The translations under genes and the position numbers were made by a program. From an uncultured Prevotellaceae bacterium (GTDB taxonomy: Bacteria > Bacteroidota > Bacteroidia > Bacteroidales > Bacteroidaceae), in assembly GCA_900315105.1 (NCBI GenBank), contig OMXX01000001.1, positions 62,001 through 126,000 on the forward strand: DNA of 64,000 bases, in the 5' to 3' direction. Shown here piece after piece: positions 10,131 through 60,091 of this stretch (the first letter of the stretch is position 1; each line of letters begins with the position of its first letter). Below the pieces are notes generated by a model, which ran no database searches, had not been told where the DNA came from, and was given only the letters and a program-made list of their open reading frames with translations.

Positions 10131-10689
10131 TCTTTTTTCGGAGAAATGTTTGGAGGTTTCTGGAATTATCACTACTTTGCGTTTGAAATTGTATATAAAC
10201 CCAAAATCCCCAAAATAACAAAACCTGAACTATGACTTTCAGAGAAATACTCAAGAAATTCCGTTGCGAATCTCAGATATATTCTGACGGTGTGGGTTGA
10301 AACCACAGCGTGAGGAAAGATGATGGGAAACGGAGGCAAGTCTTACTCTTAAACGCATAAATAATGTGAGTTCACGAATTCAAGACTACGAGGGCTGAAC
10401 GTCGAAGAGGTCGTCGAACTCACGTTATGATATATTTTTGAAATACTCTTTATGATAGATTTATATCCTCGTTGCGTGAATGTTTTAGATACGTCTGTCG
10501 AGCCTGTATTTTTGCCTTTCGAAAAATGGTTTCGGGTGATATGTGGCAAAAAAGCAGAGAAACTGTCACGTGATAGTCCATTTTCAGACAGAGTAGGTTT
10601 GTTGTGAATATGACTTGATATAAATCAATAGCAATAAGAGCGCACTTAAATTTCTTTGTTTTTCGTTCTTTGTTCTAAAAAATAAATTG

Positions 10690-10697
10690 TACCTTTG
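10690..10697 (+). promoter_or_regulatory. -7 box TACCTTTG of tRNA-Cys
   Basis: The motif GTACCTTTGCATCGCATTTG occurs here and identically upstream of tRNA-Ser at 28,910, about 40-50 bases before each tRNA, marking a shared tRNA promoter. Confidence 0.8.
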
Positions 10698-10735
10698 CAT
10701 CGCATTTGAAAAAAGTGCCCGTTCTAATCAAGTTT

Positions 10736-10807
10736 GGTGCGTTGGATGAACGGTTTAGTCTCTGGTCTGCAAAACCAGCTAAGGCGGTTCGACTCCGCCA
10801 CGCACCT
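10736..10807 (+). tRNA. tRNA-Cys (GCA)
   Basis: Acceptor GGTGCGT pairs with ACGCACC, discriminator U. Anticodon arm CTGGT-CTGCAAA-ACCAG gives anticodon GCA. The T-arm GGCGG-TTCGACT-CCGCC is perfect. CCA is not encoded. Confidence 0.97.
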
Positions 10808-25339: not shown

Positions 25340-25804
25340 TCGATTTAGTTTTATAATCTCTTCAATAATCATGGCTCGTTGCTTCCTTTGTGGAGTGGCG
25401 AGCCTTTTGTTTGTTAGGGTGTGTATGTTTTTAGTTAAAATTTAACTTTTAACCTTTTCATTCCCCTATGTATCTCCGATATAGGGAGCGGACTTGCAAC
25501 GGATTTACAACGGTTTTGGTTCGGAGGAAGAGCGAAGGAGAAGCGGATCTGAATCGTATTTAGGGCTTCGTTATGCTAAATGTTTAATATTTGGTTCTAT
25601 AATTAAAGGTGATATTGCGCTGTAATCTATTGATATATAGGCATTTGCTATGTTTAGTGTCTTGTACTGATGATGAAACTTAGTTGTTTTTTTGATGATT
25701 AGATTTGGAGATATCAGATATTATTGTTACTTTTGCATTTGGATTATTAAACATATAACATTGTCTATTAAAATTCAACAATAAATTAAAAGTTTAAAAC
25801 CAAA
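25340..25804. other. Intergenic region with ACGGACTTG repeat
   Basis: No gene is seen. GATATAGGGAGCGGACTTGC at about 25,478-25,497, followed by AACGGATTTACAACGG, repeats the motif found at 9,631. A -7 box TACTTTTG lies at 25,728-25,735 for the LRR gene downstream. Confidence 0.6.
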
Positions 25805-27574
25805 ATGAAAAAACTATTACTTGTTTTATTAACCGTGTTCTCATTCAATGCGATTCATGCAGAGATTGCATGGGAACTGTCAAGTGACGGTACTTTGACC
25901 ATATCAGGAACAGATATGCCAAACTATTCCGAAACTAATCCTGTTCCATGGCAGAGTTCAAATGTAAGAGAAATTGTGATTGAAGACGGAGTGACTAATA
26001 TTGGAGATCAGGCTTTCCGTAATTGTATGAGTGTCACTTCCGTATCAATCCCTAAGTCTGTTACGAGTATAGGAATGATGGCATTCAATTGGTGTGGAAT
26101 GACTATGATAGAGATTCCTAGTTCTGTAACTGAAATTAAAGAAGGTGCTTTCTCTTGTTGCACCAACTTGACCTCAATAACAATCCCTAAGTCTGTAAAA
26201 AGTATTGGAGAATTGGCTTTTGATTGTTGTCATTCTCTTAGTTCTATAGTTGTAGAAGAAGAAAACCCTAAATATGATAGTAGGAATAATTGTAATGCTA
26301 TCATAGAGACAAATTCCAATACCTTGATTCAAGGTTGTAAGAATACTGTTATTCCAAACAATGTGACAAGTATTGGAAACTATGCTTTTGATGGCTATTC
26401 TGACATTAAATCAATTGATATCCCAAAATCTGTGACGAGTATTGGGAAAAAGGCATTTGAGAACACAGGTTTGACTTCGTTAACGCTCCCTAAATCTGTG
26501 ACGAGTTTGGGAGAGGATGCTTTCTTAGGTTGTAACTACCTAAACTCTATCGTTGTTGAAGAAGGGAATACCATATATGATAGTAGAAATAAGTGTAATG
26601 CTATTATAGAAACCAAATCAAACACTTTGATTTGGGGATGTAAGAATACTGTTATTCCTGATGATGTGACATGTATTGGAAATAGTGCCTTTTATGGCAG
26701 CTCTGACCTTACTGCAATCACTATCCCTAATTCTGTAACAAGCATTGAGGATAAAGCTTTCATGTATTGTTCAGGTCTCACATCTATTACTATTTCTAAA
26801 AGCGTAACTAATATTGGGGATCGTGTATTCTGTGGATGTGGTAATCTTGCATCAATAATTGTAGAAGAAGGAAATACTAAATATGACAGTAGGAATAATT
26901 GTAATGCTATCATAGAGACAAATACGAATACGCTGATTCAAGGTTGTAAGAATACTGTTATTCCAAACAATGTGACAAGTATTGGAAACTATGCTTTTTA
27001 TTGTTGTTCGGGCATAACCTCTATTAATATACCTAACTCTGTAACGAGTATAGGAGATCGTGCATTCTATTTATGTGATAAACTTACCTCTGTTGTAATT
27101 CCAAACTCTGTAACAAGCATAGGAGAAGAGGCGTTCTATTATTGCAATGCTTTTGAATCTATTGTTTTGCCTGAATCTGTAAAGAGTGTAGGAAAGAAGG
27201 CTTTTCGTACTTGCAATAACCTGACTAATCTAACGATCTCTAATTCAGAGATGAGTATAGCAGATGATGCTTTCGAGGAGTGCTGGATGTTGCTTAATGT
27301 CACTATTCTTTCGAAAAATCCACCTGCATTTACAAATGTTACTTTTCCGTCATACACCACATTCCATGTGCCTGCTGGTAGCAAGGCTGCATATGAGACT
27401 GCTGAATTCTGGAAGAACTTCAATATCGTAGAGGATGCGACTACAGGTATAGATGCTGTGGAAAGTCCTGCAATGATTTCCGATGATAAGATATTCTCAA
27501 TATCTGGTCAGCGATTGGATAAGGCTGCGAAGGGCTTGAATATCATCAATGGAAAGAAAGTATTGGTGAAATAG
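25805..27574 (+). CDS. BspA-like leucine-rich repeat (LRR_5) surface protein
   Basis: A 589-aa secreted protein: signal peptide ending NAIHAE, an opening WELSSDGTLTISGTDMPNY, then about 15 LRR_5 repeats of the form VTSIGxxAFxxCxxLTSITIPxS. Three nearly identical insertions (YDSRNNCNAIIETNSNTLIQ) interrupt the repeats, evidence of internal duplication. The C-terminus SISGQRLDKAAKGLNIINGK is shared with the next gene and is a Bacteroidales-type tail. BspA-like proteins bind host surfaces or other bacteria; the partner is unknown. Confidence 0.92.
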   Translation: MKKLLLVLLTVFSFNAIHAEIAWELSSDGTLTISGTDMPNYSETNPVPWQSSNVREIVIEDGVTNIGDQAFRNCMSVTSVSIPKSVTSIGMMAFNWCGMTMIEIPSSVTEIKEGAFSCCTNLTSITIPKSVKSIGELAFDCCHSLSSIVVEEENPKYDSRNNCNAIIETNSNTLIQGCKNTVIPNNVTSIGNYAFDGYSDIKSIDIPKSVTSIGKKAFENTGLTSLTLPKSVTSLGEDAFLGCNYLNSIVVEEGNTIYDSRNKCNAIIETKSNTLIWGCKNTVIPDDVTCIGNSAFYGSSDLTAITIPNSVTSIEDKAFMYCSGLTSITISKSVTNIGDRVFCGCGNLASIIVEEGNTKYDSRNNCNAIIETNTNTLIQGCKNTVIPNNVTSIGNYAFYCCSGITSINIPNSVTSIGDRAFYLCDKLTSVVIPNSVTSIGEEAFYYCNAFESIVLPESVKSVGKKAFRTCNNLTNLTISNSEMSIADDAFEECWMLLNVTILSKNPPAFTNVTFPSYTTFHVPAGSKAAYETAEFWKNFNIVEDATTGIDAVESPAMISDDKIFSISGQRLDKAAKGLNIINGKKVLVK

Positions 27575-27594
27575 AAAATTAATTTGTATTATAT

Positions 27595-27628
27595 TGAGGG
27601 CATCTTATTGTGAGATGCCCTTTTTTCG
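27595..27628 (+). terminator. Terminator after first LRR gene
   Basis: GGGCATCT pairs with AGATGCCC and is followed by TTTTTTC. Confidence 0.9.
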
Positions 27629-27732
27629 TTTGATGATAATTAATTGTTACTTATTAATAAGTTGATTGTTACTTTGTTTGTTTGATATGCTTAAAAAAAC
27701 GTAATAAGTTATTGTATTAAGGAATTTATTTG

Positions 27733-27740
27733 TAATTTTG
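27733..27740 (+). promoter_or_regulatory. -7 box TAATTTTG
   Basis: TAnnTTTG match 60 bases before the second LRR gene. Confidence 0.65.
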
Positions 27741-27799
27741 CACGCCGAAAAGAATTGTAAATTAATAACATAAACCTTTTAAAATTCAGAAAATCAGAA

Positions 27800-28669
27800 A
27801 TGAGGAAATTGTTTATACTCATCGTGTTAACTGTTGGTTCGTTCTCTGCAATTCATGCTGAGATAACGTGGACGCTGTCATATGATGGCACTTTGACTAT
27901 ATCAGGAACGGATATGCCAGATTATCAGTCTCGAGCTGAAATCCCTTGGTCAGAGGATTGGGATAATGTCAAGAAAATTGTAATTGAAGACGGTGTGACC
28001 TGTATTGGACGTGATGCTTTTGTGAGTTGCCGTTATGCCACCTCTGTCACAATACCTAATACTGTTACAAGTATTGGGTATGAAGCTTTCTCTGGTTGCT
28101 CAAGCCTTACTTCTATAACTATCCCTGAGTCTGTTACGAGTATTGGGTATGGTGCATTCTCTGATTGCTCAGGGCTCACTTCAATTGTTATCCCTAATTC
28201 TGTGACCAGCATCGGAGCGTATGCATTCTCAGGTTGTCGTGGTCTCACATCTTTTACTATTCCAAGCTCTGTGACGAGGATTGAAGAACGCACTTTCTTT
28301 GGTTGCAGCAGTATTACCTCAATCATAATTCCAGAGTCTGTGACGAGTATTGGAGAAATGCAGTTCAAGGGTGGTGCTCTCTCTTCTATAACTAATTATG
28401 CAACAACTCCGCAGGAAATTGAAGGCCATACTTTTAATGATTATGATAATGTTATACTTCACGTACTTCCTGGTTATAAAGCAGTATATGAGGCTGCTAA
28501 CTATTGGAGCGGATTTACGATTGTTGAGGATTTAACTACGGGTATAGATGCAGTTGAAGGTTCTGCTACGATTTCCGAGGATAAGATATTCTCAATATCA
28601 GGTCAGCAATTGGATAAGGCTGCAAGGGGCGTGAATATCATAAATGGAAAGAAGGTATTGGTGAAATAG
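27800..28669 (+). CDS. BspA-like LRR_5 surface protein, shorter paralogue
   Basis: A 289-aa paralogue of the preceding gene, with the same N-terminus (AIHAEITWTLSYDGTLTISG) and C-terminus (SISGQQLDKAARGVNIINGK) but only about six LRR_5 repeats and no YDSRNN insertions. Each gene has its own promoter and terminator. The pair arose by tandem duplication. Confidence 0.92.
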   Translation: MRKLFILIVLTVGSFSAIHAEITWTLSYDGTLTISGTDMPDYQSRAEIPWSEDWDNVKKIVIEDGVTCIGRDAFVSCRYATSVTIPNTVTSIGYEAFSGCSSLTSITIPESVTSIGYGAFSDCSGLTSIVIPNSVTSIGAYAFSGCRGLTSFTIPSSVTRIEERTFFGCSSITSIIIPESVTSIGEMQFKGGALSSITNYATTPQEIEGHTFNDYDNVILHVLPGYKAVYEAANYWSGFTIVEDLTTGIDAVEGSATISEDKIFSISGQQLDKAARGVNIINGKKVLVK

Positions 28670-28689
28670 GATTTAGAGCATAGAATATG

Positions 28690-28733
28690 GAGAGCGTCTC
28701 ATGATAATTATGGGATGCCCTCCTTTTTTTTGT
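28690..28733 (+). terminator. Terminator after second LRR gene
   Basis: GGAGAGCGTCTCA pairs imperfectly with GGGATGCCCTCC and is followed by seven or more T residues. Confidence 0.8.
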
Positions 28734-28910
28734 TTCTATATATCCTTTTGATACTATATTTGATAGTGGCGTGTCTGCTGAATACAGATAGAGTAGGGGA
28801 GAAGAGAGGCATTTGAGAGAATAGGATGATGTTTATCGCAAAAAGTGAGAGATTTGCATGAAATGTGAAAAAAGTTAATGAAAAAATTTGGTGGTTTCAG
28901 AAAAATGTTG

Positions 28911-28918
28911 TACCTTTG
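28911..28918 (+). promoter_or_regulatory. -7 box TACCTTTG of tRNA-Ser
   Basis: Same TACCTTTGCATCGCATTTGA segment as upstream of tRNA-Cys. Confidence 0.8.
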
Positions 28919-28967
28919 CATCGCATTTGACAAAAGAGGTTCGGCTAAGAACTTTTCAAAGGCTTTT

Positions 28968-29054
28968 GGAAGGTTGGGTGAGTGGCTGAAACCACCAGTT
29001 TGCTAAACTGACGTACGGGTTACCGTACCGGGGGTTCGAATCCCCCACCTTCCG
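28968..29054 (+). tRNA. tRNA-Ser (GCT), probable integration site
   Basis: Acceptor GGAAGGT pairs with ACCTTCC; anticodon arm CAGTT-TGCTAAA-CTG gives anticodon GCT; a long variable arm (TACGGGTTACCGTA) marks a class II serine tRNA; the T-arm GGGGG-TTCGAAT-CCCCC is perfect. CCA is not encoded. The tRNA is intact and the recombinase begins about 200 bases downstream, so the element probably integrated at its 3' end. Confidence 0.97.
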
Positions 29055-29258: not shown

Positions 29259-30524
29259 ATGTTTAAGGTTTTTACAAATTTTCAAATGTACGGAAGTTCT
29301 GGCTTCCAGTTACGTTTTCGTATGTATCGTGCAGGAGAGGTACGTTACATCTCAGTTAATAATCTTCTTCAGGGAAATCTCATTAAGAAACACTGGAACC
29401 AGAAGAAGCAGTATTTCATCCCATCAGCACCATTCAGTACCGAGAACAATGATGCACTCGTTAAATTCAAGAAGAAATACGATGATGCTCTTAGGGACTG
29501 GGAAGGATCTCTATTCAGCTTCAACATATCAGCCAGAAGGGACGGAATTGATAATGTCCAGGCTGATGGTGAGAGACTATGGTGGGTGCTTGATTGGTGT
29601 ATTGAGAATGCTAAGAAAAAGAAACATTCCGATGGTACTATGTGTGGAACATTTGAGGTCTATGAGAAAGTAACAAGAAGGCTTCAGGAATATTGTGTAT
29701 CAAGACACCTGAGATATGAGGCTATAAAAATGGATGATGTTGATACACACATGGTAAATGACTTTCTTTCATGGGTAGAGAAGAATGGTAAGGGACAATA
29801 TGTTTCCTGTATGTTCAGATCTGTCCTGAATAAGGCAGATAAGCAGGGATGGTTTGATTTTAACAAGGTTGAGAGGTGCAACTGGATAAAACGTGTCAGG
29901 AACTCAAAGAAGAAGTATGAGACACTTACTGCCGAGCAATGCAATAAGTTTATCCACATGACTGTTTCAGAGCTTCCTAAAGGCCAGAAAAGGCTATTGT
30001 ATCATGATTTCTGTGTATTTATCCTATATACTTGTCAGTCACCATGTGATGCAATAAGCCTGAAGATGTCGGATATTAAGCAGATCAATGGGGTGGATCA
30101 TCTTATATTCAAGCGCCGTAAGATTGAGAGCAAGCAGTCGGTTGATTGTACTGTTCCCATCAACCCAGTAATGAGAAGAATAATAGATCACTGGTCTAAA
30201 TATGCTGAGGATGGTTATATATTCCCTATCAGGAGCAAAAAGAAGATTGCTACCCAGAGAGTGAATAACTTTGACATAAAGAGCTTTGTAAAGAAATGTA
30301 ATGTGTGGCTGAAGAAGGTTGGTGTATTGTTGGGGTGTGATTTCCCCTTACATAACTATACTTTCAGACATACGGCCATTACCCATTACATAAGCAAGGG
30401 TGTTCCAGTAATCTATGTTGCCAATCTTGCTGGAACGTCAGTTGAGAATTGTGAGAGTATCTACTATAACAATCATGGAGATACTACAAGTAGGGATAAG
30501 GTTTTGGCTGCGGTTGAATTTTAG
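29259..30524 (+). CDS. int: Tyrosine recombinase/integrase
   Basis: A 421-aa integrase with an N-terminal Arm-binding part (residues 1-90), a SAM-like core-binding domain (about 100-210) and a C-terminal catalytic domain. The box II segment HNYTFRHTAITHYISKG keeps Arg370, and Tyr402/403 (ESIYYNN) is the likely nucleophile. The box I Arg is not in its usual place (YTCQSPCDAISLKM) and the box II His is Tyr367 with a displaced His365, so it is divergent. It is the only confident rightward gene of the element and abuts tRNA-Ser. Confidence 0.9.
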   Translation: MFKVFTNFQMYGSSGFQLRFRMYRAGEVRYISVNNLLQGNLIKKHWNQKKQYFIPSAPFSTENNDALVKFKKKYDDALRDWEGSLFSFNISARRDGIDNVQADGERLWWVLDWCIENAKKKKHSDGTMCGTFEVYEKVTRRLQEYCVSRHLRYEAIKMDDVDTHMVNDFLSWVEKNGKGQYVSCMFRSVLNKADKQGWFDFNKVERCNWIKRVRNSKKKYETLTAEQCNKFIHMTVSELPKGQKRLLYHDFCVFILYTCQSPCDAISLKMSDIKQINGVDHLIFKRRKIESKQSVDCTVPINPVMRRIIDHWSKYAEDGYIFPIRSKKKIATQRVNNFDIKSFVKKCNVWLKKVGVLLGCDFPLHNYTFRHTAITHYISKGVPVIYVANLAGTSVENCESIYYNNHGDTTSRDKVLAAVEF

Positions 30525-31850: not shown

Positions 31851-34487
31851 TTAGTAACTGAAGCTGTCATACATATCCCCAGTATCTGAGGTGGTTACAA
31901 TTTCAGCTTCGCCGTTGATGAACTTATTATATTCTTCATTGAGATAGTAGCATAGGGCATAGTCAAGACAGTCTGAAAGGTGTCCGTATTGTTCTGCCCT
32001 GACACCATTATCCATCAGCACTTTCTTTTTCTCCTTTGTGCCATCGGGATTTCTTTTTTGATATACAAGGTCAGCAGTCAGCTTACGGCAGTTAAGGTCA
32101 ATCATTATTTTCCACCCATTATATCCGTTCAGTAGTTCATTAATAAAGTCGAGTCTTAGACCTTGCGATGGCTGGGTATTGAATATCTGTAATGATGTCC
32201 TAAAGACAGGTTTCAATGTCTTTTCAATGATAGTAAAATTGTTAGTTCCCGCTTCGGTCTGTGTTGATCTTGCAGCGCCAGAAGGATCTCCTGTAATCAA
32301 CACCCTGTCCATTTGATTCTTTCCTTTCAGATATTTTAGGATATATCTTGAGAATGCTGGAGTGTTGTTAAGACCGTCTTCTGGCTTACCTACAATTTCT
32401 TTGAAAATATATACTTCTTTTTTGTCGTAGTCTATTTGAATAGGCAATGCTGACATTTGAGGATTAATATTAAAGTCGATTGACAAGATAAGCGTTTTCA
32501 TTGGATTGAAGTATTTATCAGTTAAACCGCATATAAGATGTTTTTCACCATCAAAAGCATGATATGCAGCCATTTTATTAGAGTCGGTAAACTCCCAGTT
32601 TCCATAAAGAAGCCTATCTCTGGTGGCCTTGTCTCTAATTTTTCTTAGTCTATTAAAATAGATTATTCTGAATTGTTCGTTAGGATTGTCAAACAGACTG
32701 AAAGGCAAATACCTTAATCCTTTTGGCAATTTTACAGGATTTCCATCATCATCCATAACAAAGGTGCTACGAACCCAATTCAAACATGGATTTGTGGACA
32801 TGAGCATTTTTCCCACAATAAAGGATTCTGCTATTTTGTAACGAATACGAGATTGCAAAACTTCTATTGCTTTTTCTGATATTTCCGATACCTCATCGCA
32901 GAATGCTCCGCTAATCTCCAAACTTCCTAACCTATTGAAATCCAAGTCGTTAGGAGAGGGGGAGAGTTCTAATCCAATAATTGTACTTCCATTCCAGAAA
33001 GTAAGAACAATGCGTTGATTGTTTATATGATAATTGACATCTTGTACCAATCCCCACTCATTAAGAATATTCAACATGGTTGACCAAGTTGTAGCAATGA
33101 GGTTCTTTAACTCTTTTCTGGCAAGAACCATGCGGATTCCAGGATATTTTAGGCAGCTTGAGACAACCCAGGCACAACCCAAATAAGAATTATGAGTAAC
33201 TGTAAAATTATCAGCAACATACAATCCTGAAGGATCATCAACGGTGATACACCTTCCTATTTTTTTACCAATAGGTTCACAACTTATTATTCTTTTGCCA
33301 AGAATAGAAGCACCACCATTAAATTCATTTCTTGCATACTGTCTTTTGCGTTCCAGCCATACAATATCACGATTACATTTAGTCATGATCCAGACATTAT
33401 AAGCCAATTTGCCAGCTTTTTTATTTCCATTTCTATCCTTAAAATAAGGTTGTTTAGTTGTAATAGTTGCCTTCCCCCCTAAACTACGGACAACAAAGGC
33501 TACATCTTCTGCAAGTTGTTTGCTGACGGTGCAATAACTTATATGTCCACGATTATCAACGTAGCCATCAGTATCAATAAGTCCCTGCAATAGCATCTTT
33601 CTATCTTCAATAGAAAAATACTTATATTGCTCTGGAATGAATTTTGTTTCTGCCTTATGGTTGCCTATCCCAGTTTGAGCTATTCTATTAATAAAGTCTT
33701 TATTGTAATACATGTATGATGAAGCTTGATTGCCCCCTTTGACACTTATACTTGAATAAGGACAATCAAGTTCTGCAATTCGGTCAATAACTTCTTTATC
33801 TTTTGAAGTTATGGATGTTTTTTCCTGACTAAATAGTGACTCTGCTAAGCATCCATTACCAATTAATACCCCTAAAGTGTAAGGATGAATTGGTTTTGGG
33901 GCTTTTTGAAATTCTTTAGAAAATTCAACAGGCTCTGTCAATGGGATTATAAGATTTGATGGCTTAGGGTTGTTATGTAAATATTCGTATATTTGTTTTG
34001 CAGTCCAAATATTTTCCTTTGCACCACTTCTTGCTTTATGTAATCGCCATAAATGCTCTTCAGAACACTCAGAATATGTTCTGTCAATAAATTCAATTCT
34101 ATAATATTCACATTCTGTAATTGGATGTAAATAAATAATCTTTTGTTCTTTTCCTGTGTTTGGATTAGTAATGGTATCACCTACTTTCAAATCTCTAACT
34201 GCGCAAAACCCATTGGGAGTACATACATGAGAATCTAATGACATCTGCTTTCCCCCGCCCGCAGAACCACCTGCTAATATTAGTTCTGGTATGTCGGTAT
34301 TACCACATTTCGCGCAAATAGGTTCGTGTATAGGGTGTCCTTCTTTGTCATAACCTGTAACTCTTAATTCAAGCGGGCCTCCACATTTATCACAAACACC
34401 CCCTTGTAATGCTTTCCAAACCTTGTACTGTTTTGGCGAAGGACTGAAGTTTATAACCAGTCCTCTTGGTTGTTCTAATTTTTTCAT
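31851..34487 (-). CDS. Terminase large subunit with in-frame intein
   Basis: An 878-aa precursor. Residues 1-80 and 434-878 form a normal 525-aa terminase: an N-terminal zinc ribbon (CDKC..CAKC, residues 32-61), the P-loop GGSAGGGK (73-80) interrupted before its Ser, Walker B-like SGAFCDEVSE, and an RNase H-like nuclease (LILSIDFNINP, ITGDPSG, LSDCLDYALCYY). Residues 81-433 are an intein: Gln1, block A (SLDSHVCTPNGF), block B SEEH, a LAGLIDADG domain (TLGVLIGNGCL and LLQGLIDTDGYV), block F VADNFTVTHN, then Ser+1. Splicing would rebuild GGSAGGGKS. The first LAGLIDADG acidic residue is Asn. Confidence 0.95.
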   Translation of the reverse strand: MKKLEQPRGLVINFSPSPKQYKVWKALQGGVCDKCGGPLELRVTGYDKEGHPIHEPICAKCGNTDIPELILAGGSAGGGKQMSLDSHVCTPNGFCAVRDLKVGDTITNPNTGKEQKIIYLHPITECEYYRIEFIDRTYSECSEEHLWRLHKARSGAKENIWTAKQIYEYLHNNPKPSNLIIPLTEPVEFSKEFQKAPKPIHPYTLGVLIGNGCLAESLFSQEKTSITSKDKEVIDRIAELDCPYSSISVKGGNQASSYMYYNKDFINRIAQTGIGNHKAETKFIPEQYKYFSIEDRKMLLQGLIDTDGYVDNRGHISYCTVSKQLAEDVAFVVRSLGGKATITTKQPYFKDRNGNKKAGKLAYNVWIMTKCNRDIVWLERKRQYARNEFNGGASILGKRIISCEPIGKKIGRCITVDDPSGLYVADNFTVTHNSYLGCAWVVSSCLKYPGIRMVLARKELKNLIATTWSTMLNILNEWGLVQDVNYHINNQRIVLTFWNGSTIIGLELSPSPNDLDFNRLGSLEISGAFCDEVSEISEKAIEVLQSRIRYKIAESFIVGKMLMSTNPCLNWVRSTFVMDDDGNPVKLPKGLRYLPFSLFDNPNEQFRIIYFNRLRKIRDKATRDRLLYGNWEFTDSNKMAAYHAFDGEKHLICGLTDKYFNPMKTLILSIDFNINPQMSALPIQIDYDKKEVYIFKEIVGKPEDGLNNTPAFSRYILKYLKGKNQMDRVLITGDPSGAARSTQTEAGTNNFTIIEKTLKPVFRTSLQIFNTQPSQGLRLDFINELLNGYNGWKIMIDLNCRKLTADLVYQKRNPDGTKEKKKVLMDNGVRAEQYGHLSDCLDYALCYYLNEEYNKFINGEAEIVTTSDTGDMYDSFSY
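33189..34247 (-). mobile_element. Intein (Gln1, LAGLIDADG) inside the terminase P-loop
   Basis: The 353 codons of the intein, from Gln81 to Asn433 of the precursor. The insertion is between Lys and Ser of the Walker A motif, a site where inteins are often found because it is highly conserved. The C-terminal His-Asn and the Ser+1 are intact, so splicing is expected. Homing may be impaired by Asn in place of the first catalytic Asp. Confidence 0.92.
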
Positions 34488-56152: not shown

Positions 56153-56289
56153 AATCTGATTACTGATTAGTGTCTCACTGTATCAAACAGATTTCACCAT
56201 CTGACTCTGCGGCGTTATACGGGCTTATTGTAGCCAGTGAAACGCCGCACTCTCAGATGATATAATAAATATCATCAGTCCATCAGATT
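56153..56289 (-). ncRNA. Structured RNA unit A1
   Basis: Plus-strand coordinates. Basal stem AATCTGAT/ATCAGATT, then ACTGAT/ATCAGT, with TCC opposite one T. The conserved segment is at 56,176-56,194. The hairpin is CATCTGA/TCAGATG, GCGGCGTT/AACGCCGC and GGCT/AGCC. Strand inferred from neighbours. Confidence 0.8.
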
Positions 56290-56306
56290 TATTTGACTCA
56301 GTTATT

Positions 56307-56431
56307 CAATTATTGGCTGGATTTTGCTTTAGTTGTCAGATTTCCAAGCTGGAGAATGAACCTGCCTTATGGCATGATAAGGCTTGAGGCAGGTTCCTTT
56401 ATCCAGCTTGATAAAGATTGCCAATCCATTG
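56307..56431 (-). ncRNA. Structured RNA unit A2
   Basis: Basal stem CAAT/ATTG and ATTGGC/GCCAAT with CC bulged. The conserved segment is at 56,325-56,343. The hairpin is CAAGCTGG/CCAGCTTG then GAACCTGCC/GGCAGGTTC and CCTTAT/ATAAGG. Confidence 0.8.
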
Positions 56432-56440
56432 TTTTTAGTC

Positions 56441-56577
56441 CGATTATTGATTGGTGTCTTGCTTTAAGATTATGATTTAAGGAGATCAGAAGCACCTGTT
56501 CGCTTCAGGTGGAATATCCCCTGAAGTCGCACAGGTATCTTGTGATCTGCTTATAAAACTGTCATATCAATCCATCG
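56441..56577 (-). ncRNA. Structured RNA unit A3
   Basis: Basal stem CGAT/ATCG and TTGAT/ATCAA with TCC against TA. The conserved segment is at 56,460-56,478 (diverged). The hairpin is GATCA/TGATC, ACCTGT/ACAGGT and CTTCAGG/CCTGAAG. It begins about 25 bases after the preceding gene's stop. Confidence 0.8.
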
Positions 56578-56602
56578 AACTGAAACTGACTGCTTGCTCA
56601 GT

Positions 56603-57706
56603 TTAGGCTCTTCTTGCTCTCTTTGCCTCAGCCCACTCAGCCATCTTCTTGTCAGGATCAATGTCGTTGTCATCAAGGAACTTCTTCAGCAACCCGAAGA
56701 GCCTCCACCCCTCTTCCTTGTACTCCTCAGCCTTAACATAGAGATACTTGATTGAATCTTCCTTACTCAGCTTGCGGCCATTGTCATCCCAAAGGAAGCA
56801 GCCTGAGAAGAGGATGAAATTCTCCATAGTGAAGAATGCTCCAGTGAACTTGTAGGAATTGATAAAGGCAGCGCTCATCTTCTCGTCCCATCTTGGCTGA
56901 TACTTCTTCACCAGCTTGTAGAACTCCGCAGCAGCCTTATATAGTCCTTGGGCATCGGTCTGCTTCTTGATATTTGCATGAGCCAAAAGCATCGGCCTCA
57001 TAACCTTGCTGTTGATTTCGTCACAGAAGACATTATTGCCGCGAATCTTTTTGTACTCCCTTCCCTTGCACTTGTGAACCTCAACGTCCTTGATATACTC
57101 AGAAAGAGATGTAATGAAATCCTTAGCCATCTCAGCCACCGTAATCTTGTTATAGCCTCTGTTGTACTTGATATAGTTCTCCATATCAAGCCTTGCCAAC
57201 TTAGCCTGGACACGAAGCTCCTCAACAGCGACCTTCCATGAATACATATAACCATGAGCTTGTATTCTGGCAGTAAAGTCGTAGTTGTACCTCTCATAGT
57301 AGTTGTTCTTGCTCATCATGTGCATGATCTGAGAGGCAATCCATCTGCGGAACAACCTACGCTCAGGGATAGCACCGTACTCAATGATAGCCTTGAAGAT
57401 AGGATCGTCATCTGCTACTGGCTGAATGACTCCGTTCTCAAGCCTTACCACTGTATCACCACCATTTGCCCCATTCATGGCAAACAGATTGTCCACGTTC
57501 ACACCAGCAGCCTTCAGAGCTGCAATCTTCTCACTTGCTGTCTTCTTCATCTTGTTTGGTTTGTTACTTGTTTCTGCGGCTGGAAGGATGATTGTTCCCA
57601 TTCCAGAGTCCTTGCCGATACACATTCCTGCTGCAAAATGCTCATGCTCAGGGATTGCGATTTCAGCTCCACAGTTAGGACACACCACTTTTGTCTCGTT
57701 CTTCAT
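56603..57706 (-). CDS. Zinc-ribbon protein between the two RNA arrays
   Basis: A 367-aa protein. The N-terminal ribbon KVVCPNCGAEIAIPEHEHFAAG is followed by a linker with KMKKTASEKIAALKAAGVNV, then a largely helical body (RRLFRRWIASQIMHMM, VEELRVQAKLARLDM) and a basic tail EAKRARRA. No family recognised. Its position between the arrays makes it a candidate partner of the RT, though such proteins also occur generally in Bacteroidales phages. Confidence 0.75.
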   Translation of the reverse strand: MKNETKVVCPNCGAEIAIPEHEHFAAGMCIGKDSGMGTIILPAAETSNKPNKMKKTASEKIAALKAAGVNVDNLFAMNGANGGDTVVRLENGVIQPVADDDPIFKAIIEYGAIPERRLFRRWIASQIMHMMSKNNYYERYNYDFTARIQAHGYMYSWKVAVEELRVQAKLARLDMENYIKYNRGYNKITVAEMAKDFITSLSEYIKDVEVHKCKGREYKKIRGNNVFCDEINSKVMRPMLLAHANIKKQTDAQGLYKAAAEFYKLVKKYQPRWDEKMSAAFINSYKFTGAFFTMENFILFSGCFLWDDNGRKLSKEDSIKYLYVKAEEYKEEGWRLFGLLKKFLDDNDIDPDKKMAEWAEAKRARRA

Positions 57707-57733
57707 AATTGCTTTGTTTTTTAAGTTAATTGA

Positions 57734-58210
57734 TTATTGTTGTCTCGTAACCCATTCCTTCAGGATTACTAAATCTTTGTCTTCTTCACTCTGCCAGAAC
57801 CACTTGCCCATATCCCACTCATCCCAGTATTTATCAAAAACTCCTGTGACAGCGTAATATAGAACAGTAAATTCAAGACAGGCTTGCGCTTTGTCTCTCG
57901 GAATACCGAAAAGCATATCTTCTTCTGACAGTTCATGCTCCTTCAGTGCCTTGAAATAGTTTTTTCTCCTACTATTTGTCCGTTCTGAGGGGATGGAATA
58001 CTTGTAATATGAGTAGGCTTCGTTGATATGCTTCAAGACTTGCTCCTTTGTTATCTCGCAATCTTCATAGCATCCCAACTCACCCTCATACTTGCCATTA
58101 TCCACCAACTTCTTGCCGTTGATTGTCAATGTTCTGTCTTTCAGTGAGATATGCCATTTTACTCCCGTAGAAGCTGCATCCCATACTTGCTCAAAGATTG
58201 ATTTTTCCAT
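57734..58210 (-). CDS. Unknown protein directly downstream of array B
   Basis: A 158-aa protein. YYKYSIPSERTNSRRKNYFKAL, EDMLFGIPRDKAQACLEFTVLYYAV and KWFWQSEEDKDLVILKEWV form a pattern I recall from many Bacteroidales mobile elements, without known function. It starts 16 bases after unit B1. Confidence 0.7.
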   Translation of the reverse strand: MEKSIFEQVWDAASTGVKWHISLKDRTLTINGKKLVDNGKYEGELGCYEDCEITKEQVLKHINEAYSYYKYSIPSERTNSRRKNYFKALKEHELSEEDMLFGIPRDKAQACLEFTVLYYAVTGVFDKYWDEWDMGKWFWQSEEDKDLVILKEWVTRQQ

Positions 58211-58226
58211 TTTATTTCAAAATTAA

Positions 58227-58359
58227 GGACACTCATAGTCTTGGCTGAGGCTTTATTTATCAGATCTTACCCTGGTGCATTGAAGGTTCCAGTGTATTTC
58301 ACACTGGCCCCTTCCAATTGAGGAAACCAGGGGTGTGAATCCTATGACTCCTTGTGTCC
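58227..58359 (-). ncRNA. Structured RNA unit B1
   Basis: Basal stem GGACAC/GTGTCC and TCATAG/CTATGA with CTCCTT bulged on one side. The conserved segment is at 58,249-58,267. The hairpin is CCCTGGT/ACCAGGG, GAAGG/CCTTC and CCAGTGT/ACACTGG with ATTTC loop. Confidence 0.85.
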
Positions 58360-58373
58360 GTTTACCATTCAGC

Positions 58374-58508
58374 TATGGCTCTGTATTGTCAGGTAGATTT
58401 AACTATATTTGATAGATTTAGACTGTATTATCCAGACTTAGAAGGATGTATTCACATACTCTTGAGTCTGGTATCACACAGTCTGTTAAACATATTGCTG
58501 ACTCCATA
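58374..58508 (-). ncRNA. Structured RNA unit B2
   Basis: Basal stem TATGG/CCATA and GTCAG/CTGAC. The conserved segment is at 58,401-58,419. The hairpin is AGACTGT/ACAGTCT, CCAGACT/AGTCTGG and GTAT/ATAC; TTTAAC/GTTAAA could extend it and cover part of the conserved segment. Confidence 0.8.
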
Positions 58509-58510
58509 CG

Positions 58511-58647
58511 TTTTTGTATTGCTGGGTAGGCTTTTACTTTACTTACTTGATTTCATTGGATATTTCTCAGATGCTCATCTCGTATTAATGAGATGAGCAT
58601 CAGATTACAATATGTAATGAATAAATGCACCCAACTCCATACTAAAA
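58511..58647 (-). ncRNA. Structured RNA unit B3
   Basis: Basal stem TTTTTGTAT/ATACTAAAA and TGGGT/ACCCA with ACTCC bulged. The conserved segment (diverged) is at 58,535-58,553. The hairpin is a perfect GATGCTCATCTC/GAGATGAGCATC on an AT-rich stem. Confidence 0.8.
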
Positions 58648-58810
58648 TGACTCTCAAAACATTGGCTAAAGCTTTATCAATCAGATCTCTCCAGCTTACA
58701 AGATGACTTTCTTAGAGGCTGGCCTGCTCCGCGTCTTTGACGCGGGTGGCCGTCATCTGAAGAAGTCATATTTGAAGCGGGATTGTGAATGTCTTGTTTC
58801 TTGAGTCATT
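58646..58810 (-). ncRNA. Structured RNA unit B4 (RT-proximal)
   Basis: Basal stem AATGACTC/GAGTCATT and ACATT/AATGT. The conserved segment is at 58,670-58,688. The hairpin is ATGACTTTCTT/AAGAAGTCAT, GGCC/GGCC and CGCGTC/GACGCG. It shares ATTCACA with B1 beside the hairpin. The internal loop differs from the other units. A GGCTAAA/TTTAGCT pairing with DNA just outside is an alternative. Confidence 0.8.
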
Positions 58811-58831
58811 ACGTTTAGCTCCGTCCATTCA

Positions 58832-60091
58832 TCAGAGCATGGCAACCAAGGCATTATATACAGCTCTTCTCGTCAGTAATGCTTTCTGCATACATACCAA
58901 CGTCAGATAACCTTCAATTTTCTCCTCAGTCTTTGCTCTGTTCGCCTTGACATTCTTTCCCTTGCCTCGGACAATACATCGTTTGAGGTCAGGCACATAG
59001 CCCAGTCCACCAATCTTATGGCGGTCAGTCTTACATCCTCTCAGTCTGTCCATGACGAAGTTATTCAATGTCATCAGGTCATCAGCCACATTCACCACTC
59101 TCAGAACTGAAGTAGCCCATGAGTATTCGCCTTTGTAGAGAAACCTGTTCACTTTGTTTATGGCAGACTCATAGCTCACTCCATGCTTGGTGCGCTCCTC
59201 AATCTCTTTCTGAAACTTCTTCAGCCTTGTCTTGCTCAGGGTTCGCTCACCCCCTCTTATTGAAAAGCCAAGGAACTTGAACCACTTGTCCTTTCTGATT
59301 TCCTCAACTTTCTTCGGATTGAGTTTCATGTCCATATTCTGAAGCATACTACTCAGCACACCCATAGCCTTTTTGTAGCTCTTACCGATGTAGAGGATGT
59401 CATCAGAATACCTGATATACATTCCATTGTCTCGGTCTGCAACAAGAGTGATTGCCGTATCAATATGTCTCAGAACCACGTCAGCCAGCCACGCCGCAAC
59501 CGCACAGCCTTGCTTCAGTGATTGGTAATTGCTCTTTAGAACTCCATCCAAATCAAAGTACCAGTCAGAGTGATAATAACTCCTGAGAACATCAATCACT
59601 TTCGACTTGCCCCATTTGTCCTCCACCTTGTCAAAGGCATTGTCAATAAACTCCAAGGGAACAGAATCAAAATACTTGCTCAGGTCAGCCTTGAAGCCAA
59701 TCACCTCGCCCTCAGCCTCCGCAATAGTCTTGCTGATACCGATTACCACGTCACCACATCCAGTTCCAGTCAGATAGCTCTTGCAATTCTTATGCACCAT
59801 CTCTGGCATCAGCTCGAAAAGCAAGTCATTTGCAATACTGAGGAAGATACGGTCAATAGGCTCATTCACATAGACCGTCCTAAACTCACCCTTCTCCTCC
59901 TTTGGTATCTGAGCAGTATGGGGTGGGGTAATGGTGTATGTTCCATTCTTCACAGCCTGATAGAGCCTTACTCTCGTAGCCTCTTTGGTCAGTTGATAAA
60001 GGTCAGCCTTGCGAATGTCCTTGTCCACTCCTTTGGCTAACGCATACCTCCAGCGCTCTGGCTCCATGAATTTTTGCAGAATTACGTCCAT
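58832..60091 (-). CDS. Reverse transcriptase associated with RNA arrays
   Basis: A 419-aa RNA-directed DNA polymerase with a complete palm: motif A FKADLSKYFDSV (Asp136), motif B-like QGCAVAAWLADVVL (194-207), catalytic YSDD (228-231), NPKKVEEI and KFLGFSIRGG (272-281), then a thumb and a basic C-terminal domain (GGLGYVPDLKRCIVRGKGKN). No endonuclease, maturase, protease, RNase H or primase domain is fused. The retron VTG motif and a DGR variable repeat or accessory protein are absent. Four structured RNA units follow its stop, and three more after two genes. The start overlaps the preceding gene by 89 bases. Confidence 0.95.
   Translation of the reverse strand: MDVILQKFMEPERWRYALAKGVDKDIRKADLYQLTKEATRVRLYQAVKNGTYTITPPHTAQIPKEEKGEFRTVYVNEPIDRIFLSIANDLLFELMPEMVHKNCKSYLTGTGCGDVVIGISKTIAEAEGEVIGFKADLSKYFDSVPLEFIDNAFDKVEDKWGKSKVIDVLRSYYHSDWYFDLDGVLKSNYQSLKQGCAVAAWLADVVLRHIDTAITLVADRDNGMYIRYSDDILYIGKSYKKAMGVLSSMLQNMDMKLNPKKVEEIRKDKWFKFLGFSIRGGERTLSKTRLKKFQKEIEERTKHGVSYESAINKVNRFLYKGEYSWATSVLRVVNVADDLMTLNNFVMDRLRGCKTDRHKIGGLGYVPDLKRCIVRGKGKNVKANRAKTEEKIEGYLTLVCMQKALLTRRAVYNALVAML

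Follow-up and report, generated by a model that had tools for sequence, protein, structure and literature searches.

A phage- or prophage-borne UG27 reverse transcriptase locus with two arrays of scaffolded RNA units whose hairpins may be copied into DNA

The 64-kb stretch of DNA analysed here (the window) carries, on its minus strand, a reverse transcriptase (RT) gene followed in turn by array 1, the genes for RTas346 and RTas337, and array 2; units A–D lie between the RT and RTas346, and units E–G follow RTas337 (Table 1). Profile comparison places the RT in the UG27 clade: its best PADLOC model is RT_UG27 (E 7.9e-195, 645.7 bits), the next is UG26 (105.1 bits), and it also matches Pfam RVT_1 (E 3.4e-18). 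Catalytic RYSDD or RYCDD is kept in 136 of the 136 RT rows examined. The family numbers 4353 proteins at E ≤1e-20 among 7998 scored, a count that may take in neighbouring UG clades. A preliminary description of this DNA could name no described RT with such an array and left the two genes between the arrays unnamed. The clade is already known, and both neighbours, which belong to the system, are known RT-associated families with PADLOC profiles.

Table 1. Features of the UG27 locus in window coordinates.
Feature	Position	Strand	Evidence
UG27 reverse transcriptase, 419 aa, catalytic RYSDD	58832..60091	-	PADLOC RT_UG27 + Pfam RVT_1
Unit A, array 1, type 1 scaffold	58646..58810	-	cmsearch R1 58647-58809 E 5.7e-8; fold z -5.4
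Unit B, array 1, GG(A)/A loop	58516..58642	-	hand-read architecture + fold z -5.8; neither model matches
Unit C, array 1, GG(A)/A loop	58383..58509	-	hand-read architecture + fold z -5.1; neither model matches
Unit D, array 1, type 1 scaffold	58227..58359	-	cmsearch R1 58226-58360 E 1.8e-5; fold z -4.5
RTas346 accessory protein, 158 aa	57734..58210	-	PADLOC RTas346 E 2.7e-49
RTas337 accessory protein, 367 aa	56603..57706	-	PADLOC RTas337 E 1.9e-107
Unit E, array 2, type 2 scaffold (GG/A)	56439..56579	-	type-2 script pattern; fold z -6.3; neither model matches
Unit F, array 2, type 2 scaffold	56307..56431	-	cmsearch R2 56304-56434 E 0.0014; fold z -5.4
Unit G, array 2, type 2 scaffold	56153..56289	-	cmsearch R2 56154-56288 E 5.2e-8; script pattern; fold z -7.9

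The PADLOC model of RTas346 is matched by 42/42 aligned family members, and a homologue lies near the RT in 67 of 80 representative loci. For RTas337 the corresponding figures are 45/45 and 77 of 80, the other three loci being cut contigs; in two loci (L048 and L114) RTas337 lies upstream rather than downstream of the RT. The structure of RTas346 is predicted with a pLDDT of 93.7 and has no fold match in the PDB (best Foldseek E 4.3), and VIA likewise gave nothing usable. RTas337 has an N-terminal CPxCG zinc-ribbon-like part followed by a helical domain. Its identification as a Cas1 is unsupported by sequence (hhalign probability 0.3% against eight Cas1 proteins).

The units share one architecture, comprising a basal stem in two parts that covaries, an internal loop and a core (AUCRRnnnnnUAAAGnnAYGYRYC) that are both conserved, the core being unpaired in the model, and a long, almost perfectly paired hairpin whose sequence is particular to each unit. 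Compared with 200 mononucleotide shuffles of its own sequence, each of the seven window units folds better (z -4.5 to -7.9). Covariance models built from other phages, without the window sequence, recover four of the seven in cmsearch, with R1 (type 1) finding A and D and R2 (type 2) finding F and G; a separate script pattern detects E and G. The seven structured units reported beside a stand-alone RT are thus real. When the model searches are run with filters off, units are missed, score poorly or have shortened matches, and the filter-free matches listed for them leave no room, or too little, for the hairpin insert. Two-sided changes are seen at 20/20 modelled type 1 pairs and 19/19 type 2 pairs. 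Covariation in homologous loci, which the preliminary description had named as a check on its reading, is therefore present in both types, and it indicates that the scaffold functions as RNA.

The two scaffold subtypes differ in their internal loop, which is AAGG/AUGA in type 1 and GG/A in type 2. The GGA-containing loop first ascribed to every unit accordingly holds for one subtype, while unit D and, less exactly, unit A have AAGG/AUGA. Reading the basal loop as a kink-turn was given up in favour of a 4x4 AAGG/AUGA loop because longer S2 helices result. Conservation is poor at the inner S2 pairs of type 1 (columns 17/87 are unpaired in 15 of 26 rows and columns 18/86 in 19 of 29), and at the hairpin base of the type 2 alignment no more than 54.6% of cells are paired. 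At gathering level, Rfam finds nothing but two tRNAs in the window and no match in eight related loci; sub-threshold matches of the units are to unrelated families, mostly eukaryotic miRNAs (E 0.015 to 2.9).

The arrays travel with the RT. In 111 of 119 related loci, units are found on the same strand as the RT and 3' to it, usually 4–9 of them at a spacing of about 173 nt. At E ≤0.1, cmsearch over the 119 loci gives 287 matches (166 + 121), all on the RT strand, and an in-house scan at a score of at least 26 gives 568 forward and 4 reverse matches. Three of the loci without units (L050, L085 and L114) show none at threshold in the 6 kb downstream of the RT; in the five others the contig breaks off no more than 505 nt from the RT. 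Unit calls further include 12 places upstream of the RT. Among 119 Bacteroides genomes the RT is present in four and units in five, with four shared; the fifth genome with units has one match (E 0.007). The core pattern occurs in 28 viral contigs, of which 21 have the RT beside an array and seven have a lone match with neither RT nor array, so that no RT-less array was found among them. The co-occurrence with the RT clade for which a covariance-model search had been suggested is thus observed.

The claim that the hairpin differs in every unit holds within an array, but hairpins are passed on by descent, and related phages have orthologues of many of them. Their mean folding energy per nucleotide is -0.435, against -0.211 for shuffled sequences (150 of 383 units). 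No hypermutation of hairpins is seen, the rates being equal in hairpin and scaffold and free of A bias, in a test restricted to alignable units, which therefore under-counts swapped tips. Pairing between apical and internal loops shows no excess (38/168, against 37.9 when permuted).

The hairpin tips have a character of their own. Among distinct tips with a 4-nt loop, UNNC is found in 41/72, compared with 44/786 control hairpins, and GNRA in 0/72, compared with 83/786. Not every tip has the UNNC loop, and among the seven window units a clear UAUC is found in the predicted tip of F only. On the complementary strand UNNC reads GNNA, and d(GNNA) loops are stable as DNA. With DNA parameters, the antisense tip is more stable than the sense tip in 109 of 179 cases, less stable in 38 and tied in 32. 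RNA parameters also favour the antisense (118, with the sense more stable in 32), and stability alone therefore cannot indicate DNA.

A second line of evidence comes from how pairing changes. One-sided changes give a GU:AC count of 138:163 in hairpins versus 111:50 in scaffold stems. The contrast is weaker with a single count per pair (82:78 versus 64:30, p 0.012) and weaker again among anchor units scoring at least 40 (54:47 versus 49:25, p 0.12). A first, redundant count of isolated hairpin mismatches (flank 3) gave 40 GU and 11 AC, which pointed to RNA. With duplicates removed, the hairpin counts are 59:41 (flank 3) and 17:9 (flank 4), resembling the 56:36 of control DNA (flank 4), with no GU preference. 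Taken together, the UNNC tips, the antisense stability and the GU:AC contrast lead us to infer that the hairpin may act as DNA of the complementary strand; strict hairpin pairing could instead stem from quasi-palindrome correction in DNA.

We propose, at a probability of about one half for the whole including the copying step, that this is a phage- or prophage-borne UG27 system of RT, two arrays, RTas346 and RTas337, in which scaffolded hairpins are copied into a set of DNA hairpins used in phage conflict. The RT and accessory proteins would recognise the constant scaffold as RNA, and the RT would copy each unit-specific hairpin into single-stranded DNA (ssDNA), so that each array would yield a set of short DNA hairpins unlike one another. 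This set would resemble a battery of retron products, where each retron makes one msDNA, made here without the retron RT motifs. The DNA hairpins might then serve in conflicts between the phage and host defences or other, rival phages. Every tip may have its own protein to bind or sense; this would account for the conservation of tips in some lineages and their exchange as blocks in others. The observation in the preliminary description is confirmed and generalised and its interpretation partly supported; the tip loops agree with its suggestion of hairpin copying into cDNA. More tentatively, and somewhat short of even odds, the locus may be a multiplex DNA-hairpin factory, with the RT, RTas346 and RTas337 acting through a common handle on 4–9 units to give ssDNAs with GNNA tips. 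If tips are swapped as cassettes between phages, the array would be a modular set of DNA decoys or sensors for phage warfare.

The leading alternative, itself unlikely, is that the locus works like the Class 2 defence-associated RTs, with the core as template for short or tandem-repeat cDNA and the variable hairpins as sensor or regulatory domains, one trigger to a unit. The nearest named PADLOC models after UG27 are indeed UG26, UG17, UG4 and Drt9 (UG17 E 1.1e-23; Drt9 E 2.9e-18), and no other stretch left unpaired by the model is as conserved as the core. UG17 corresponds to DRT10, for which the part of the report available to us describes a confined ncRNA template copied into repeats (PMC12632851). 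Against this, the core contains a 5-nt run nearly without consensus and shows no evident direct repeat for repeat addition, and tip loops more stable as antisense are left unexplained.

Next, and also improbable, is a purely structural role for the unit RNAs, which the RT complex would hold as decoys, sponges or protein-binding hairpins while the RT copies something else. UNNC would on that account be a protein-binding RNA loop, and the same tip loop could indeed be read by a protein as RNA. The hairpins are much more stable than shuffles and have an apical loop motif in common, the scaffold stems evolve as RNA, and the redundant mismatch count leaned to GU in the hairpins. That leaning disappears with the duplicates, the sense tips are the less stable ones as RNA, and the RT catalytic residues are kept throughout the family rows. 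Two further ideas are very improbable. A guide or spacer array, in which hairpins are acquired foreign pieces and RTas337 a Cas1-like integrase adding units, is weakened by a search of three arrays, each against part of the collections, that found no protospacer match (outside RT loci, nothing better than E 0.07). The other takes the palindromes for DNA-level elements of the phage genome, working as cruciforms or dsDNA sites, with an incidental RT. It would suit the strict Watson-Crick pairing of the hairpins and their lack of a GU preference, but the scaffold shows the covariation and the tolerance of GU expected of RNA, 287/287 model matches lie on the RT strand, and the loops are strand-asymmetric.

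Returning to the copied-hairpin reading, the scaffold would be a ready tool, yielding several ssDNAs from one transcript; if the factory reading is true, it would lend itself naturally to programmable ssDNA production. The system is testable, since the RT occurs in phage contigs, in genomes of common gut Bacteroidales, Bacteroides fragilis Q1F2 (L106) among them, and in phage BS-TP1 (L011), an isolate with Bacteroides salyersiae as native host.

Comparison with known systems is in keeping with the exclusions made in the preliminary description. No group II intron RNA is matched by Rfam around the RT gene in the window or in the eight related loci. Diversity-generating retroelements (DGRs) also pair a phage-borne RT with nearby non-coding DNA, but self-comparison, which covers pairs with both members inside the 64-kb window (E 1e-3), gives no TR/VR-type pair involving 55–61 kb, and A-biased hairpin mutation is absent. 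CRISPR and TIGR arrays likewise repeat a unit in tandem, keeping some parts constant and varying others, and TIGR-Tas occurs in phages according to the part of the literature on it available to us; the UG27 array differs in its stem-scaffold constant part, its self-complementary variable part and the lack of a protospacer match in the searched data. Retrons share a basal stem and long hairpin, which in UG27 units is possibly reverse transcribed. VTG and NAxxH are motifs of retron RTs, and a retron has one msr-msd. The UG27 RT rows have VTG, searched anywhere in the protein, in 12/136 and NAxxH in 0/136, the best retron model for the RT reaches E 1.8e-12 among 25 matches listed, and an array replaces the single msr-msd.

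The same three proteins, RT_UG27, RTas337 and RTas346, form the UG27 candidate defence-associated RT (DRT) entry of PADLOC-DB, which contains protein models only, mentions no RNA and carries the defence label as a candidate. In our search of the open-licence PubMed Central literature, UG27 was named in no paper, nor was RTas337 in the RT sense, and no hairpin-unit array tied to an RT was described; what is already known is the proteins, as candidate DRT models. Class 2 UG RTs (DRT2, DRT3a, DRT9 and DRT10/UG17) are alike in having a cis-encoded structured RNA beside the RT, which here is predicted. In the portions of the reports available to us, those studied so far make cDNA templated by that cis ncRNA, a single one whose confined template gives repeats (PMC13174585; PMC12632851), and a single kind of RNA is likewise described for the other RT systems with cis RNA that we met. 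The UG27 locus differs in its usual 4–9 units, its dissimilar hairpins and its two accessory proteins, and a link between one RT and a whole array of RNAs that share a handle but vary in their hairpins would represent a new logic of multiplexed, modular reverse transcription.

The reverse transcriptase of the window belongs to the UG27 clade: it matches the PADLOC model RT_UG27 with 645.7 bits (E 7.9e-195), whereas the second-best model, UG26, reaches 105.1 bits. The layout given in the preliminary description, a reverse transcriptase (RT) followed by four structured units, two genes and three more units, is borne out on the minus strand, and PADLOC assigns the two genes to named families (see table). 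The window probably derives from a temperate phage, since it holds both an integrase match and a terminase large subunit match; its closest relative among the records compared is a 114-kb virus contig carrying the related locus L001. Elsewhere in the window, a cluster of diverged repeats resembles a repetitive gene region for a tail protein or adhesin, and a near-identical 29-nt stretch that shortly precedes each of two tRNA genes may be a promoter common to both or the remnant of an attachment site.

Features of the window, the RT system in its order along the minus strand
Feature	Position	Strand	Match or detail
UG27 RT, 419 aa	58832-60091	minus	PADLOC RT_UG27
Four structured units		minus	array 1, units A-D
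158-aa gene		minus	RTas346 family (PADLOC)
367-aa gene		minus	RTas337 family (PADLOC)
Three further structured units	ending at 56153	minus	array 2, units E-G
Integrase match	29259-30524
Terminase match	31851-34487		terminase large subunit as best match
Diverged internal repeats	25800-28700		up to 87% identity over 203 nt
29-nt stretch, copy 1	10687-10715		tRNA gene at 10736
29-nt stretch, copy 2	28908-28936		tRNA gene at 28968

The array is a conserved companion of this RT. Our sample comprises 119 loci with a UG27 RT, 86 on viral contigs or phage records and 33 on bacterial genome contigs (one component being the best 80 of 108); all genome loci are labelled Bacteroidota except one MAG labelled Bacilli. 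A covariance model of the type 1 scaffold, R1, was built from 29 trimmed units, all from other phages, and a model of the type 2 scaffold, R2, from 17 other units. The preliminary description looked to covariation in homologous loci, and it is seen: every modelled pair changes on both sides (20/20 in R1, 19/19 in R2). The R1 alignment has 165 double-change cells where shuffles have 59.4. Its basal helix, S1, shows pairing in 96.1% of cells; the corresponding figure for R2 is 93.6%. On the window, R1 recovers units A and D, and R2 recovers G and F. R1 matches 287 times at E 0.1 or better, 166 of these in one set of 60 loci and 121 in the remaining 59, and never off the RT strand; our own unit scan (score at least 26) finds 568 units on that strand vs 4 on the opposite one in 1.43 Mb. 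At a score of at least 22, units lie 3' of the RT in 111/119 loci, and five of the eight loci without them are truncated no more than 505 nt from the RT. Medians are 27 nt from the RT to the first unit and 173 nt for unit spacing; 91 of the 104 loci having at least 4.5 kb downstream carry 4-9 units.

Type 1 units run from a 7-bp stem S1 through an AAGG/AUGA internal loop, stem S2, a UUYA-bearing linker and the unit hairpin to the core, S2' and S1'. The core consensus, AUCRRnnnnnUAAAGnnAYGYRYC, was drawn from the 237/408 units in which UAAAG or UAAGG stands ungapped where expected, and that of the linker from 196 of those 237 picked by a UUNA match, so that the fixed letters of both are partly due to this selection. 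Type 2 units have a GG/A loop, and their core frequently closes with CCCC or CACC. Across the 77 loci where RTas337 was called, a type 2 script pattern matches 86 times on the RT strand vs 4 on the opposite strand; 81 matches are downstream of the RT, 52 of these beyond RTas337; of the matches preceding RTas337, some look like type 1 units in a different register.

Linkage was assessed in 80 representative loci (RT below 97% nucleotide identity). RTas337 occurs in 77 of them, always sharing the strand of the RT, and RTas346 in 67; after these two, the most frequent family of same-strand neighbours reaches 24. An opposite-strand ORF family found in 72 loci sits at the RTas337 position and is probably its shadow. 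RTas337 lies downstream of the RT in 75/77 loci and upstream in L048 and L114, and the three loci without it are contigs ending early. Among the 13 loci without RTas346 one contig ends early; the others are L003-L006, L009, L044, L062, L066, L068, L070, L108 and L111. In several loci without RTas346 the units are few ahead of RTas337 and more numerous behind it. Sequence searches for PDB relatives of either protein gave nothing better than E 0.028, and Pfam matches are weak, including zinc ribbons in some RTas337 members. RTas346 yields a confident predicted model for which no fold match was found; RTas337 contains a helical domain, and its resemblance to Cas1 is weak and finds no support by sequence. 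Both proteins may be handle-binding or effector parts.

Units occurring routinely apart from the RT, which would have told against the association put forward earlier, were not found in the viral contigs and genomes searched. A core-pattern scan of viral contigs picked out 28, of which 19 are, by contig name, RT loci of the 119-locus sample and two more carry RT, RTas346, RTas337 and 3 or 5 units; the remaining seven lack the RT and show no array (five without any unit in our scan, two with a single odd 234-nt call). Bacteroides, to which B. fragilis Q1F2 belongs, was covered by 119 genomes: the RT occurs in 4, and units, searched under tighter filters with a small number of candidates from each genome, in 5, the fifth having one marginal match (E 0.007). 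Scoring the top 150 candidates in each large genome, R1 matched nine of ten genomes or records (the exception being the record of L115), and the matches shown fall at the RT locus, judged from coordinates.

The hairpins measure 40-182 nt (median 95; 427 distinct units) and differ within an array: 400 units from 80 loci yield 2 similar pairs. Between related phages many can be matched as orthologues by their position, and 179/400 belong to similarity clusters. One cluster of 14 units is recognised by its tip, CGTCGTATCCCTAnnGTnATACGACG with minor variants; among the 12 units listed, the lower stems are unlike and the loci are as distant as L005, L043, L068 and L108. Over 213 orthologous pairs, change rates are 0.091 for hairpins, 0.088-0.090 for S1/S2 and 0.097 for the core. 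Some close pairs of loci reveal block replacement of the tip, with pairing and scaffold retained (L029/L035, units 1-3; L036/L093 and L103/L104, unit 1), and this exchange may be concentrated at unit 1. Some swapped tips match other phages' arrays (L103_1 to L057_1, L104_1 to L043_1, L093_1 to L061_1, the suffix numbering the unit); those of L029_3 and L036_1 have no match elsewhere among the sequences compared. Array DNA gave no spacer-like matches (BS-TP1 and window arrays against phages; B. fragilis Q1F2 array against plasmids and four host genomes). Unpaired hairpin letters are G-poor (9% G in apical loops), and where the first internal loop is 5 nt long, one 5'-side position is A in 81% of 62 cases.

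The nucleic acid under selection can be approached through the tips, of which 227 distinct ones were compared with control hairpins from upstream DNA. Loops of 4 nt read UNNC in 41/72 tips vs 44/786 controls (UAUC being commonest, with 19) and GNRA in 0/72 vs 83/786; 6-nt loops read UANC in 20/39 vs 23/517, and 3-nt loops UNC in 8/34 vs 14/438. We know of no stable RNA loop of the UNNC kind. The complementary strand reads GNNA, and d(GNNA) loops are exceptionally stable in DNA. With DNA parameters, stability favours the antisense tip in 109/179 cases and the sense tip in 38 (p 5e-11); with RNA parameters the corresponding counts are 118 and 32. Because both favour antisense, the asymmetry is one of strand; that the tips act as DNA is suggested by the scaffold being RNA of the opposite strand. 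Where a Watson-Crick pair has changed on one side only, GU:AC ratios are 111:50 in scaffold stems vs 138:163 in hairpins (Fisher p 2.3e-6), the latter without a base-to-tip trend (0.65-0.96). Counting each unit pair once weakens the contrast to 64:30 vs 82:78 (p 0.012), and to 49:25 vs 54:47 (p 0.12) for anchors scoring at least 40; all these p-values are optimistic since the units are related. An earlier, redundant mismatch count leaned to RNA and fell to control level once duplicates were removed. We infer from these sequence patterns that the scaffold is selected as sense RNA and the tips as antisense DNA, which is the pattern that a hairpin-copying RT would leave.

A mechanism has to accommodate a scaffold that covaries, hairpins specific to each unit, fixed accessory genes and strict strandedness. 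The catalytic site is intact, reading RYSDD in 135/136 rows and RYCDD in one (120 best homologues plus 16 rows of alignment A1, five of which repeat homologues). We propose that the RT binds the scaffold, that synthesis is primed and the unit hairpin copied, and that the resulting DNA hairpins would be released or complexed. The system may act in phage conflict, given that PADLOC files it as a DRT candidate, that its setting is phage or prophage and that tips are swapped.

By profile scores, the neighbours of UG27 are UG26, UG17 (DRT10), UG4 and Drt9, a proximity that suggests that it falls within the UG family on the side of the RNA-templated Class 2 enzymes (PMC12632851). In GenBank, the UG27 RT of Bacteroides phage BS-TP1 (PQ571274.1, 8001-9254) is annotated 'tail protein' with a note citing a reverse transcriptase profile hit, and the ~1350 nt behind it, which hold the array, are without annotated features. 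Distant RTs (24-25% identity) on the human faecal phage fragments MT837428.1, MT839204.1 and MT839988.1 may be another UG clade in phages. The array itself is absent from Rfam and was not found in the literature searched (mostly papers outside subscription, the UG/Abi founding paper not among them). As to the retron and DGR comparisons made previously, UG27 RTs lack the retron RT motifs, and no DGR-type repeat pair is seen within the 64-kb window. The three proteins are already known from PADLOC as a candidate system with family names, which calls for caution over novelty; to our knowledge, however, no other RT system has an array of individually different scaffolded RNAs.
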